From Pigmentibacter sp. JX0631 (GTDB lineage: Bacteria > Bdellovibrionota_B > Oligoflexia > Silvanigrellales > Silvanigrellaceae): 64,000 bases of DNA. The stretch lies in assembly GCF_029873255.1 (NCBI RefSeq), contig NZ_CP123622.1, forward strand, positions 682,501-746,500, in the 5' to 3' direction. This document shows positions 53,881 through 61,555 of the stretch, piece after piece. Both the position numbers and the translations under genes were made by a program. The notes beneath the pieces are model-generated. The model did not search any database and was not told the DNA's origin. It saw nothing but the letters and a program-made list of their open reading frames with translations. How positions within the stretch are numbered: position 1 is the first letter of the stretch; every line of letters begins with the position of its first letter.

Positions 53881-55683
53881 TCAATTTTTTCCCCAAAGTT
53901 CAATTATAAATTTTTCTTCTATAAAATTAGCCGGATATGCAATAAATACTTTTGGAATTCTAGATATATTTTTAAAAAAATTAGGCAACCTTTCATATTC
54001 ACAAACACTATTATAAGATTCTTCCAGTCTTCTTAAATTAACTTCACTATGATTAGATTTATCATCTAAAACAATACCATTCCAAAATCCATACGAAAAT
54101 GGTTCATAAATATTATAAAATTTTGAACTAAGAACCCCTAAATTTGCCTTCTCACACATTAGTTTAAAATGACTATTTTCATTTTTTATCATTAAGTTAT
54201 CTGAACTTTTGATCCTAAAATAAATACTATTATAATCTGATGTTTCAAAAATTTCTTGCAGTGTAAAAAAATCCGAAGAGCGATGTTTTTCATTAGGCAA
54301 AGGACTATTATGCGCTAATACTTCCATTATTTTTTTACCCATATTTCTTTCTAATTTTGATTCATCATACCTAACAATATAGTTGTCAATTGAACTAGTT
54401 TTATTGTTTAAACATGTACTTATATTTCTATAACATTCATCTGCAAAATTATGGTAAAATTCTATATTATTATTAGAATGTTTTACAATATTTTTTAATA
54501 TATTTTTTAAATCAATTTCTAATTCTTGATGTTCAAGCATTCTATTTGCCACTGAATTATTGTCATATTGTTTTATAATTAGATCTCTTATTTTCTGTCT
54601 AAATTCTATTAACTTATTTTTATCTTCATAATTTTCAGTAATTGTAAAGTCTAATTTTTTCCCATTTGAGTCTACTATATTTAATGAATCGTATGGTTCC
54701 GTTTTTACTTGTTCTACAACCCAATGAGAAAGGGAATGATCTGCAAGTTGTTTTGGATAGGCTTCTGAAACATATTTATTAACACTATCAAATATTTCTT
54801 GACATTCTATGATATTATTAAGAGTACATGTATTGGTTTTAAGTGCTGTATTTAAGGCTTCTGGTGTCCCACCTATTTGTATTCCATGCACACTAAGCGT
54901 CGAATGTCTTAGTGTTTCGTCACTAACCATTTTTAAATTAGCAGATAGTTTAAATTTTCCTTTTACTTCCTTATCTCCTTCCTTTTTGTCTCCATCATTG
55001 CCAGAAGTTGAATCTATAACTGCGTTTTGCACTACACCTATTTTATTTTCAAATTCATTACGAGCAGTTCGATTATCAAATTTTATTTTTACAGTTATAA
55101 TTAATTTTGATGAGTAAAGTTTACTTGTTACTACTTCATCTCCACATGTTTTCATAAAATCATAAATATTATTTAGTTTTCCATTTTTATCAAAGTAACT
55201 TAAAGCGGTTTTATTTAAAGTAAATGCAGCACTATCATTATGCATTAAATTAACCCTTCCAAGTATTACATTAGAAGAATAAGTTACTGTCCTACTTAAG
55301 CGAGTGGTTTTAGCATCATCGAGAAAACGAGATTCTGGTGTTACAGTATATCTTTCTGTTGGAATAGAAGAATCTTTCAGACTAGTGTCAAGTATTTTTC
55401 TTATTTCTGAATAATTTAGATTATCTCTTAAATTAACAAATGATCGCTCAGAATTTGTAGGAATTTCTAGCTTATAATTTTCAAGACATCCCTCTTTAAA
55501 AATGTGTTTCATTACGTGATACCCACCCATATCCTTGGGAGTACTTGTATCTATTTGAGAAATGGACACATGGTTTGAGCTAGTTTTTTTATTTATCAAG
55601 CTATTAGTTTTTGTTCCGCAAGAAATTAAACTAACACTCTGTAACGTGCAATAAATAACAAATTTATTAAGTATATTTTTCAT
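53881..55683 (-). CDS. Large putative lipoprotein of unknown function
   Basis: A 600-residue exported protein with a lipoprotein-type start: MKNILNKFVIYCTLQSVSLISC, with Cys22 preceded by LIS. The mature protein is highly polar, rich in Asn, Ser, Lys and Glu, with scattered cysteines (NTCTLNNIIECQE, DECYRNISTC) that may form disulphides. A Gly/Asp/Lys-rich segment (about residues 230-243) looks like a flexible linker. No known domain was recognised. RBS CGAGGATA precedes the ATG. It lies upstream of the exported Ppx-like gene on the same strand but with a 400-base gap, so joint transcription is doubtful. Confidence 0.6.
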   Translation of the reverse strand: MKNILNKFVIYCTLQSVSLISCGTKTNSLINKKTSSNHVSISQIDTSTPKDMGGYHVMKHIFKEGCLENYKLEIPTNSERSFVNLRDNLNYSEIRKILDTSLKDSSIPTERYTVTPESRFLDDAKTTRLSRTVTYSSNVILGRVNLMHNDSAAFTLNKTALSYFDKNGKLNNIYDFMKTCGDEVVTSKLYSSKLIITVKIKFDNRTARNEFENKIGVVQNAVIDSTSGNDGDKKEGDKEVKGKFKLSANLKMVSDETLRHSTLSVHGIQIGGTPEALNTALKTNTCTLNNIIECQEIFDSVNKYVSEAYPKQLADHSLSHWVVEQVKTEPYDSLNIVDSNGKKLDFTITENYEDKNKLIEFRQKIRDLIIKQYDNNSVANRMLEHQELEIDLKNILKNIVKHSNNNIEFYHNFADECYRNISTCLNNKTSSIDNYIVRYDESKLERNMGKKIMEVLAHNSPLPNEKHRSSDFFTLQEIFETSDYNSIYFRIKSSDNLMIKNENSHFKLMCEKANLGVLSSKFYNIYEPFSYGFWNGIVLDDKSNHSEVNLRRLEESYNSVCEYERLPNFFKNISRIPKVFIAYPANFIEEKFIIELWGKN

Positions 55684-57436: not shown

Positions 57437-58579
57437 TTAAAGATATATTAATCCACACTTTAAGTTATAAAAAATTTTACCATAGGAAACTTTATTTGCA
57501 ATTTCATTTAATACATTGAAGCTTAAATTTTTGTAATGAAATATTTTATCTTCAGAATCAAATGTACTTGCATGAATAACATAACCATTTTGCTTCACTT
57601 TAAAATTTCCAATATTATTCATCACTCCTGCTGATAATATAAGATGAATATCAGGACTATGTTGCCAAAACTTTTTCCCAACTCCTTGAAAGTGATCAAA
57701 ACAAATTTCTATACCTAGAGTAAAGTGTTTATCGTTATGAATTGGAATGCAGTATAAACCGACACCATTTTGATATATTTTCTCAGACTTTATTCCGGGC
57801 ATAAATAATTGATTACTATAATCATCTTCTTCATCATAACCGGCAATTTTATTATATTTTACTATTCTTTTTCCTGATAAATAGCCAAATGTTTTATTTG
57901 AAATTAAATTGAAATTGCTTTTTTTCCCATGATATTCTCCCACTCTATCAGAAAAATTTTTTGTATCTCTAATATTGTACATGTTAAATTCATGCTGAAT
58001 TAAATACTTAAGATGTGCAGAAGAATTTTTTGTTTTATCATCAATTATTGTAGATTTATAAAATTCATAAGGTGATTTATAAAAATCAATACCTCTTGAT
58101 TTTTTTTCTTTAACATAATCTTTATACTTATTCATAGTTTCATATAAAGAAGATTCACTCTTGGTATTTTTTTCACCATATTTTTTTTCACTCGCAATTG
58201 TTCCTAATAATATTAAAATATTTTTATATTTTTCTGAAAGTTTATGGATTTTATTTTCTATAAGTAATTTCTCTTCATTTAAAATTATTTTTTTCTGTTT
58301 AGTTAATGATAAGAAATATTCTGGGGCAAGAAGTATTGCTTTTACTTGCTGATTTTTAAAATTTTTTTTATGTAATTCCTTAAACTTTATATATTCATTG
58401 TCACTTATTATTTTTATCTTATTTACTCCAATACAACTGTAAAATGAAAAATTATTTTCTAGATGCATTAACTGATCATGAATGTAATTAAGAATATGCT
58501 CAATTCTTTTAAATTTTTCTTCCAATGAAAATGTATCTTTATAAATTGAATATACTTTAAAAATAAAAATAGGTGACAT
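57437..58579 (-). CDS. Divergent carbon-nitrogen hydrolase (nitrilase superfamily)
   Basis: A 380-residue protein in which a nitrilase-type Glu-Lys-Cys triad can be picked out: Glu87 in LLAPEYFL, a Lys in IVKYNKIAGYDEED (Lys241 or Lys244) and Cys293 in LGIEICFDHFQG. The strand ILLGTIASEKK after the Glu and the HLILSAGVMNN segment near the C-terminus also fit the four-layer fold. About 100 residues are inserted between the Glu and Lys. The substrate, presumably an amide or nitrile, is unknown. RBS AAAGAGA precedes the ATG. It follows the XPB/Bax1 pair on the same strand, 97 bases after the nuclease stop. Confidence 0.65.
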   Translation of the reverse strand: MSPIFIFKVYSIYKDTFSLEEKFKRIEHILNYIHDQLMHLENNFSFYSCIGVNKIKIISDNEYIKFKELHKKNFKNQQVKAILLAPEYFLSLTKQKKIILNEEKLLIENKIHKLSEKYKNILILLGTIASEKKYGEKNTKSESSLYETMNKYKDYVKEKKSRGIDFYKSPYEFYKSTIIDDKTKNSSAHLKYLIQHEFNMYNIRDTKNFSDRVGEYHGKKSNFNLISNKTFGYLSGKRIVKYNKIAGYDEEDDYSNQLFMPGIKSEKIYQNGVGLYCIPIHNDKHFTLGIEICFDHFQGVGKKFWQHSPDIHLILSAGVMNNIGNFKVKQNGYVIHASTFDSEDKIFHYKNLSFNVLNEIANKVSYGKIFYNLKCGLIYL

Positions 58580-58676: not shown

Positions 58677-59903
58677 TTATTGAAATAATTTAAGTATTTC
58701 TAAAACTTGATTAATAGAAGGGACTTCACGAAAAATAAAACCTTTTTCATGAAAATATTTAGACTCTTGTATTCGTGATGCTATATCTTGATCTTTCAGC
58801 AAACTTTTTGCAACTCCAAGAACAAGATTATAAGAATTACTATTTTCAATATTTTCCAATCTTTGAAGAAAAGCTTTCTTATGCCAAGAATGAAATAATT
58901 CTAAAAATACTACTTTATTATTATTAATAAATTTAAAATCAGGAAAAAAGAAACTACTTCCATCAAACAATATTTCTTCATCATTTTGATCAATTTTCCA
59001 ATATTCCGACTTATTTTTAAAAAGTTCAGAAAAAGTTTGAAATTCTTCGGGTATATAGCTGGAAAAATTTTTATAGTGAGAAATTAGTGGTGATTTCTCA
59101 CTTATTTCTAGCACTCCTTGGCTTCTACTTGACTTAGAAATTGCTATATTTGCAATTAACTTCCATTTTGTTAAAAGCACAATATTTGGAAAAAATGCTG
59201 CTAAGTTAAATCCATACTTTTGAGTTTGAATAAATAAAGAGATTGGTCCATCGATTTGGACATAAAAATTATCATCTTTAATTTCAATATAAGCTACTAA
59301 TTGATAAAATTTTAATTGACGGAGTAAAAATCTTAGATCTGCTTTTGAATTTTTATGCTGTCCAATTTCAATAGTTACTGCTTCACTATAAAATAGTAAT
59401 CCTTGCACTAAAGAAACATTATAACGATTTAATAATTTTATTTCTTCGATATCTTTAAATGCTATAATTTTACTATTCTCAGGTAAATCTGAGTAAAGTA
59501 TTTTCTGAATTTCTTCGATTGATTTCTCAACAGTTTTAGCTATATCTTTTAAATAATGCGACAATTTAATTTCAGAATTTTCTTTTAAAAAAAGAGTTGC
59601 ATTAGAAAATAGTTTATGTCGAAATTCATTCATATCACTTGTCATTACTTCGGCATATTTTAATCTATCATGCAAAAGTTTAATAATTCCTTTTAAAATT
59701 ATTTCTTCAATACTAGATTCAATCAAAAGCTGTTGCTCTATTTGTTCTTCAACTTCATATCTGGTTAAACCTATAGCATTTGAAAAAACTTGCAAAGCAC
59801 TTCTAGCAAAATTTAAAAGTTCAGGGTCACTAGATGAAATGAATTTAGGAAGAATCTGTCCTTTACTTTTTTTAAAGTTCAGAAGTTCTTTTTTCGTAAG
59901 CAC
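58677..59903 (-). CDS. DUF790/Bax1-like nuclease
   Basis: A 408-residue protein of the DUF790 family, whose archaeal member Bax1 is a structure-specific nuclease that binds XPB helicase. Matching blocks are LNRYNVSLVQGLLFYSEAV, VQIDGPISLFIQTQKYGFNL, AAFFPNIVLLTKWKLIANI and the restriction-endonuclease-like end FFFPDFKFINNNKVVFLELF (Asp322, Glu335), followed by HSWHKKAFLQRLE. The N-terminus is helical. It starts at GTG 59903 with AAGGA upstream and overlaps the helicase gene by 32 bases. The pair probably acts together to unwind and cut damaged or branched DNA. Confidence 0.82.
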   Translation of the reverse strand: MLTKKELLNFKKSKGQILPKFISSSDPELLNFARSALQVFSNAIGLTRYEVEEQIEQQLLIESSIEEIILKGIIKLLHDRLKYAEVMTSDMNEFRHKLFSNATLFLKENSEIKLSHYLKDIAKTVEKSIEEIQKILYSDLPENSKIIAFKDIEEIKLLNRYNVSLVQGLLFYSEAVTIEIGQHKNSKADLRFLLRQLKFYQLVAYIEIKDDNFYVQIDGPISLFIQTQKYGFNLAAFFPNIVLLTKWKLIANIAISKSSRSQGVLEISEKSPLISHYKNFSSYIPEEFQTFSELFKNKSEYWKIDQNDEEILFDGSSFFFPDFKFINNNKVVFLELFHSWHKKAFLQRLENIENSNSYNLVLGVAKSLLKDQDIASRIQESKYFHEKGFIFREVPSINQVLEILKLFQ

Positions 59904-61254
59904 TATGCATTTTCCTTCTTTGGTTTACAAAATATTCGCTTGTTCCAGCGGAAATTAATTCATACAATATAGCTTTTTTTCCTTCTTTGGCACGTAGTAT
60001 TCTTCCCAATCTTTGTACATGCTCTCTCACTGTTCCACTACCAGAAACCACAACTGCAACATTAGCTTCTGGAACGTCAACTCCCTCATTCAAGACCTTT
60101 GAAGTAACTAAAATATTATAGACTCCCTGCCTGAAAAGAGTAAGAAACTGCTCTCTTTCCTTAACTTTTGTATGATGAGTAAGAACTGGTAAATAAAAAC
60201 TTTTTCCAATTGAATATGCTGTTTCATTATCTTGAGTGAAAATAAGAACTCTATCTGTTCGATGTTTGAGTATAATATCCCAAACGTAATTTAATTTATT
60301 TTCGGATGATTGAGATAATTTTTTTTGCTTTAAATATGCTGCAAAAGCTTCTTTTCCATCTGATGTTCGACAAGTTAATTGAATGAATTGCTGCCAGCCA
60401 TTTTTCTGTTGAAAATTAATGTTATTTTTACGAATAAAATTCAAATAAATTTGTCGATATTCTTGATATTGCTTTTTCTCAGTTTCAGACATTTCGACTT
60501 CAAGTGTTATTATTTCGTAAGGTGCAAGAGTTTTTCCTTCAAGATCTTTTATATCCGTTTGGTAACAAATTCCGCCACATAATTCATATAATAGCTTTTC
60601 TTTTCCGTCAGATCTTTCTGGTGTAGCAGTCAATGCCAAACGAAACGGAGCAATAGAACTTAATGCAGTATATTGCATTTGTTCACTGGGTAAATGATGA
60701 CACTCATCAAAAATTAAAAAACCAAATTTATTTCCCTTTGAAGGCACATGGATCAGAGCAGAATCATACGTTGCTACAGTAATATTTTCTGGCTGGTTAT
60801 AGCCACCACCAAGTAATCCTATTTTAGTGCCAAAAAATTTTAACAAGACATCATACCACTGGGTCATTAAATCAATAGTAGGCACATGTATTAATGTGGG
60901 ACGTTGTATTTTTGCTATTGCTAGAACAGCTAAAATAGTTTTTCCAGCTCCAGTAGGTAAAACAACAACTCCATTAGACTGTTGATTTAACCAAGCATTA
61001 AGAGCTTGGGTTTGATAGGCTCTTGGTTCGATCTGCATTTGAATTGAAAAATTTTGGGGTAAAAAATCTTTTGCCTCATCCTGATAAACTATTTGCTCTT
61101 TTCTTAAACCCAAAATAATATTTCGATAATGATACCCCATCGCACGAAAAGCAGATACCCTAATATCCCATTTTAAATATGGAAAAATGGAAGCTAAATT
61201 TTGTGCCAGATTCGATATTAATAATGTTCCTTTATCAAACCTAATATGTATCAA
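59872..61254 (-). CDS. XPB-like superfamily 2 DNA helicase
   Basis: A 460-residue SF2 helicase of the XPB/Rad25 type. A short N-terminal domain (about 1-70) like the damage-recognition domain is followed by QTQALNAWL, Walker A LPTGAGKT (102-106), DEAD-type box DECHH (183-187), LALTATPERSDG, and in the second RecA domain VLIFTQDNETAYS, TSKVLNEGVDVPEANVAVV and QRLGRILRAKEG. It starts at TTG 61254 with a very strong GGAGG RBS and overlaps the Bax1-like nuclease gene. In archaea the same partners act as a helicase-nuclease machine proposed for nucleotide excision repair; this is a bacterial instance. Confidence 0.9.
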   Translation of the reverse strand: MIHIRFDKGTLLISNLAQNLASIFPYLKWDIRVSAFRAMGYHYRNIILGLRKEQIVYQDEAKDFLPQNFSIQMQIEPRAYQTQALNAWLNQQSNGVVVLPTGAGKTILAVLAIAKIQRPTLIHVPTIDLMTQWYDVLLKFFGTKIGLLGGGYNQPENITVATYDSALIHVPSKGNKFGFLIFDECHHLPSEQMQYTALSSIAPFRLALTATPERSDGKEKLLYELCGGICYQTDIKDLEGKTLAPYEIITLEVEMSETEKKQYQEYRQIYLNFIRKNNINFQQKNGWQQFIQLTCRTSDGKEAFAAYLKQKKLSQSSENKLNYVWDIILKHRTDRVLIFTQDNETAYSIGKSFYLPVLTHHTKVKEREQFLTLFRQGVYNILVTSKVLNEGVDVPEANVAVVVSGSGTVREHVQRLGRILRAKEGKKAILYELISAGTSEYFVNQRRKMHSAYEKRTSEL

Positions 61255-61555
61255 GACTCCTCCTACTATTGATCCATAGTTTCATTTACAAATGCTGTAT
61301 TAAATGTCAAGTATTAACTTTGAGGAAAAAATCAAACCTATTTTTTGAAATAACAACTACAAAGTTGATTTAATAACATTTAATTAGAATTATAATTAAT
61401 TTAATTTTAAAAAATTCTTTAAATGGATATAGTTTTAGATAAATATTTTAACAAAAATATATTTACAAATTGCTATTTTTATTTTACTTATAAATTGTAA
61501 GTTGTATATAAATATTTTTACTCACTGTTTCCATGAATTTGTTTTAGGAGATGAA
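61255..61555. other. Divergent intergenic region upstream of the XPB-like helicase
   Basis: About 300 very AT-rich bases between the helicase (minus) and a small exported protein (plus). The only sure elements are the two RBSs (GGAGG for the helicase, AGGAGATG for the exported protein). No promoter stands out, and no small gene or RNA was recognised. Confidence 0.4.

Follow-up and report, generated by a model that had tools for sequence, protein, structure and literature searches.

XPB is a central helicase of human repair and transcription, and archaea are thought to repair damaged DNA with XPB and the nuclease Bax1. The 64,000-nucleotide stretch of the Pigmentibacter sp. JX0631 genome that we have analysed (the window) carries two adjacent genes of this type, which raises the question of what such a pair is, how far it extends among bacteria and what it might do in a cell that already has UvrABC. 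The features of the locus are as follows (coordinates within the window).

59872..61254, minus strand: XPB/Rad25 family SF2 helicase of the archaeal (DRD plus thumb) type, 460 aa, TTG start
58677..59903, minus strand: DUF790/Bax1-type PD-(D/E)XK nuclease, 408 aa, GTG start
59872..59903, minus strand: 32-base overlap between the end of the XPB gene and the start of the Bax1 gene (from the ORF coordinates)
61257..61264, minus strand: Shine-Dalgarno-like AGGAGGAG, just 5' of the XPB TTG (from the sequence and the congener alignment)
59914..59918, minus strand: Shine-Dalgarno-like GAAGG, 5' of the Bax1 GTG and within the XPB gene (from the sequence)

The open reading frames, their overlap and their starts (TTG with a strong ribosome binding site, then GTG) are as the preliminary description of this DNA gave them. 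AGGAGG is found four bases before the TTG of the helicase gene, and this start, together with a GGAGG or GGAGG-like stretch upstream, is conserved in the alignment of four congeners. The GTG of the nuclease gene has GAAGG ten bases upstream, and the alignment with archaeal Bax1 starts at residue 4 of the nuclease, which agrees with the GTG start. A promoter scan at the locus gave fewer matches than were found in shuffles.

The larger protein had been described as an XPB and proved to be one; for both genes the family assignment lies far outside what chance would give. Its Pfam architecture comprises the XPB damage-recognition domain (XPB_DRD, 57 bits against a cut-off of 26), ResIII and the XPB C-terminal domain (ERCC3_RAD25_C, 65 bits against a cut-off of 27), and the XPB of Archaeoglobus fulgidus matches it with 349 bits over residues 4-449 (phmmer, PDB). 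The DRD occupies residues 4-61, Walker A (GAGKT) 102-106, DECH 183-186 and motif VI (QRLGRILR) 414-421, with R214-S-D216 at the position of the RED motif. At the sequence level, the thumb region (residues 241-330) can be aligned without gaps with the XPB of both A. fulgidus and Sulfurisphaera tokodaii. Residues K105, D183, E184 and E366 are invariant in 14 of 14 bacterial sequences, as are R214 and D216 at the RED position, where the middle residue is S, A or V, not E (S. tokodaii has RDD). E366 is aligned with E357 of S. tokodaii; this agrees with the interface of the archaeal complex but is no proof of it, because the stretch is common to many helicases. This helicase is the sole XPB of its genome.

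The assignment of the smaller protein to DUF790 has been upheld as well. The full Pfam profile matches residues 1-403 with 233.2 bits (cut-off 28.8), the Bax1 models of NCBI also match, with scores under their strict cut-offs, and a sequence search of the PDB retrieved only Bax1 proteins (from Pyrococcus, Sulfurisphaera and Archaeoglobus). For both proteins of the pair, the best matches are the XPB and Bax1 of the solved archaeal complexes from A. fulgidus (6p66) and S. tokodaii (6p4f, 6p4o and 6p4w). An AlphaFold model of the nuclease, built from 18 bacterial sequences (pLDDT 86, pTM 0.75), matched eight Bax1 chains with E values from 9.5e-24 to 2.3e-20, and the same structure search gave no match other than Bax1 at E<=0.001. 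Global TM-scores of about 0.6 and an rmsd of 6-7 suggest that, in the model, the domains are placed differently from those of the Bax1 structures. In the structure-match alignments about 19-24% of the residues are identical with archaeal Bax1, which is a low value.

In A. fulgidus Bax1 the proposed metal site consists of E275, D305 and E318 (PMC7293015). D305 and E318 are aligned with D322 and E335 of the nuclease, both unchanged in all 18 bacterial sequences, and E275 with E286 or E287, an uncertainty of one residue within which the motif I acid is present in all but one of the 18. The alignment thus finds an acidic triad of the PD-(D/E)XK type along with DUF790. At the second site of the A. 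fulgidus protein, D139 corresponds to D133, also invariant in all 18 sequences, and the position of E135 is taken by a proline with a glutamate adjacent to it. One of the mutations that weakened binding by S. tokodaii Bax1 affects the interface residue R86 (PMC7293015), which is aligned with R95 of the nuclease; this arginine is again invariant (18/18).

That the two genes keep a fixed order and are conserved together in relatives had also been proposed, and both points are borne out within the phylum. Of 58 genomes from the phylum, 39 have DUF790, as do 24 of the 38 in our sample of relatives (own genome included). All 20 DUF790 loci read in context have an XPB gene upstream, adjacent and in the same strand and order, and 19 of these pairs overlap if each gene is given its longest open frame, the closest relative with an identical overlap of 32 bases. 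Five of six further DUF790 loci also have an adjacent upstream XPB, which brings the total to 25 of 26 on the same strand; a second DUF790 copy, on a 3.2-kb contig (L140, G042:C215), shows no XPB in the 1.2 kb available upstream. Several genomes of the phylum have two DUF790 genes. In a Pfam census of the 38 genomes, 22 had both families, 14 neither and two only DUF790, so that 36 of the 38 either have or lack the two together (Fisher p 1.2e-8, not corrected for relatedness); in both DUF790-only genomes an XPB gene does adjoin DUF790. Both genes are missing from two congeners and from three of the four sister genera sampled, so that the module is dispensable. The flanks of the congeners show two arrangements that are related to each other, and the window and the closest relative have most neighbours in common. 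The pair is a real, intact and conserved module.

The pair had been considered uncommon in bacteria, and this view did not survive a wider search. Scanning genome contigs with the nuclease alone found no relative, a consequence of the poor conservation of its short peptides. A scan based on the helicase alignment gave at least 557 related stretches, of which the best 80 were taken for locus reading, a set selected by similarity to this type of helicase. They come from SAR324, Poribacteria, Calditrichota, Lentisphaerota, Magnetococcales, Myxococcota, Planctomycetota, Acidobacteriota, Latescibacterota and others. Among these best 80 bacterial XPB loci, 69 have DUF790 downstream on the same strand; two of these have it at some distance from XPB, about 0.5 and 1.5 kb. 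In ten of the other 11, DUF790 is found elsewhere in the genome (L056, L060, L065, L081, L088, L094, L111, L128, L130 and L131), and in the eleventh (L127) the contig stops at the end of XPB. An alternative nuclease partner at the XPB loci without an adjoining DUF790 was sought and rejected, the neighbours tested having unrelated functions or no Pfam match and DUF790 being present elsewhere in all ten. The module is nothing unusual in its phylum, and its distribution among bacteria is wide. As the pair is common in many bacterial groups, we regard it as a real system but one of a known kind.

The preliminary description also suggested that the pair might serve in defence; it would then be a helicase-nuclease that unwinds and cuts invading phage or plasmid DNA. 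A helicase plus a nuclease is a frequent layout of defence systems, the defence helicase PbeA is matched moderately by the helicase (195 bits), DUF790 occurs on some plasmids (the plasmid matches are mainly to haloarchaeal and Deinococcus replicons), and a selfish character was left possible by a survey of 2005 (PMC1189080). However, the similarity to PbeA and to defence models is confined to the helicase core, no PADLOC model matches the nuclease, and of five neighbouring or paired proteins none shows a known defence family. DUF790 gave no match in 50,697 phage records, and the pair is chromosomal, with flanks conserved among close relatives and a broad presence across the phylum. We thus found the defence option unsupported and consider it very unlikely.

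The presence of uvrABC in the same genome had been proposed as a check. Clear matches were obtained for UvrB (1039 bits) and UvrC (474 bits). The best UvrA (932 aa, about 640 bits) is below the curated cut-off, but both the DNA-binding and the interaction domain of UvrA are present in it. The genome has a second UvrA, of 844 aa, to which the UvrA DNA-binding domain gave no match; the two UvrA loci are at G000:C1:1495201-1497948 (L047) and 1739185-1741653 (L048). Genomes of the family have a divergent UvrA, of about 590-640 bits, well below the curated cut-off. We examined whether XPB-Bax1 could substitute for a missing UvrA and rejected the idea, given that the UvrA domains are present and that the same divergent form is found in relatives both with and without the module. 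The genomes therefore show no connection between the module and the use of UvrABC, the kind of UvrA being the same where the module is absent.

From the gene identity, catalytic residues, predicted fold and conserved pairing established here, we infer a complex, DNA cutting and a role in repair. With moderate confidence, we read the pair as an archaeal-type XPB-Bax1 module that would open and cut damaged or branched DNA, as auxiliary repair beside UvrABC. Both genes would be expressed together and co-translated, and their products may form a heterodimer through the N-terminal helices of Bax1 and the thumb and second helicase domain of XPB. The ATP-powered XPB would open DNA at a lesion or junction, and the PD-(D/E)XK nuclease of Bax1 would cut one strand near the single/double-strand junction, adding an auxiliary repair activity to the UvrABC of this bacterium. 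We counted against this explanation the low identity to Bax1, the replacement of E135 by proline, the R-S-D reading of the RED motif, the dispensability of the module and the lack of a link to UvrABC. The same complex might instead trim branched intermediates of replication or recombination (a fork or a D-loop), not bulky lesions: the archaeal complexes are active on forked and bubble DNA (PMC7293015, PMC7672443), excision repair is already covered by UvrB, UvrC and a UvrA, and the survey of 2005 named repair or recombination (PMC1189080). The genome context shows no link to recombination genes, however, and the sequence does not separate lesion repair from branched-DNA processing; we judge this alternative rather unlikely. 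By homology, repair is a plausible best guess for the bacterial pair.

The archaeal complex, for which structures and biochemistry are available (PMC7293015, PMC7672443), resembles the module described here in its adjacent genes, an XPB with DRD and thumb region, a full-length Bax1-type nuclease, the catalytic D and E and the arginine at the tested interface position. It differs in that the host here is a bacterium with UvrABC, the C-terminus of Bax1 is shorter (408 aa against 468 and about 480 in A. fulgidus and S. tokodaii), the RED motif reads RSD and a proline stands at the second-site E135. The Mycobacterium-type XPB shares the XPB helicase core in a bacterial host, but Mtb XPB has another N-terminal domain, lacks the thumb and had no Bax1 partner identified; according to the 2012 study of Mycobacterium XPB, bacteria had until then yielded no complex of this kind (PMC3353954). 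Along these lines, a Corynebacterium control had the XPB C-terminal family, and both DRD and DUF790 were absent. A further precedent is the COG1061-COG3372 neighbourhood, reported in 2005, in which genes for DUF790 nucleases usually adjoin SSL2-type helicases and repair or recombination was suggested (PMC1189080). The arrangement of nuclease beside helicase is the same, but at that time it was known almost only from Archaea and Cyanobacteria (PMC1189080), whereas here it extends to many more bacterial phyla.

The bacterial XPB work that we found in the literature concerns the Mycobacterium type, without thumb or identified Bax1 partner, and our search, mostly of papers available without subscription, found no paper or experiment on a bacterial XPB-Bax1 pair. 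It is possible, though we would put it only tentatively, that many bacterial phyla keep a second excision machine of this archaeal and eukaryote-like kind in parallel to UvrABC. If true, this would be a widespread bacterial repair pathway, so far uncharacterised. An archaeal-type pair in bacteria with UvrABC also offers a genetic setting for asking what XPB-Bax1 does in a cell.

Some minor features of the region may be added. A 600-aa protein with a lipoprotein-like start (53881-55683) has no Pfam match and no counterpart in the congener loci examined. Downstream of the pair, a 380-aa protein (57437-58579), also without a Pfam match, is retained in one of the four congeners with compared flanks (71% identity). 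Within the genus, with identities of 40-77% for the nuclease and 60-87% for the helicase, the nuclease diverges faster, and its gene is the more AT-rich of the two, with a GC of 0.26 against 0.33.
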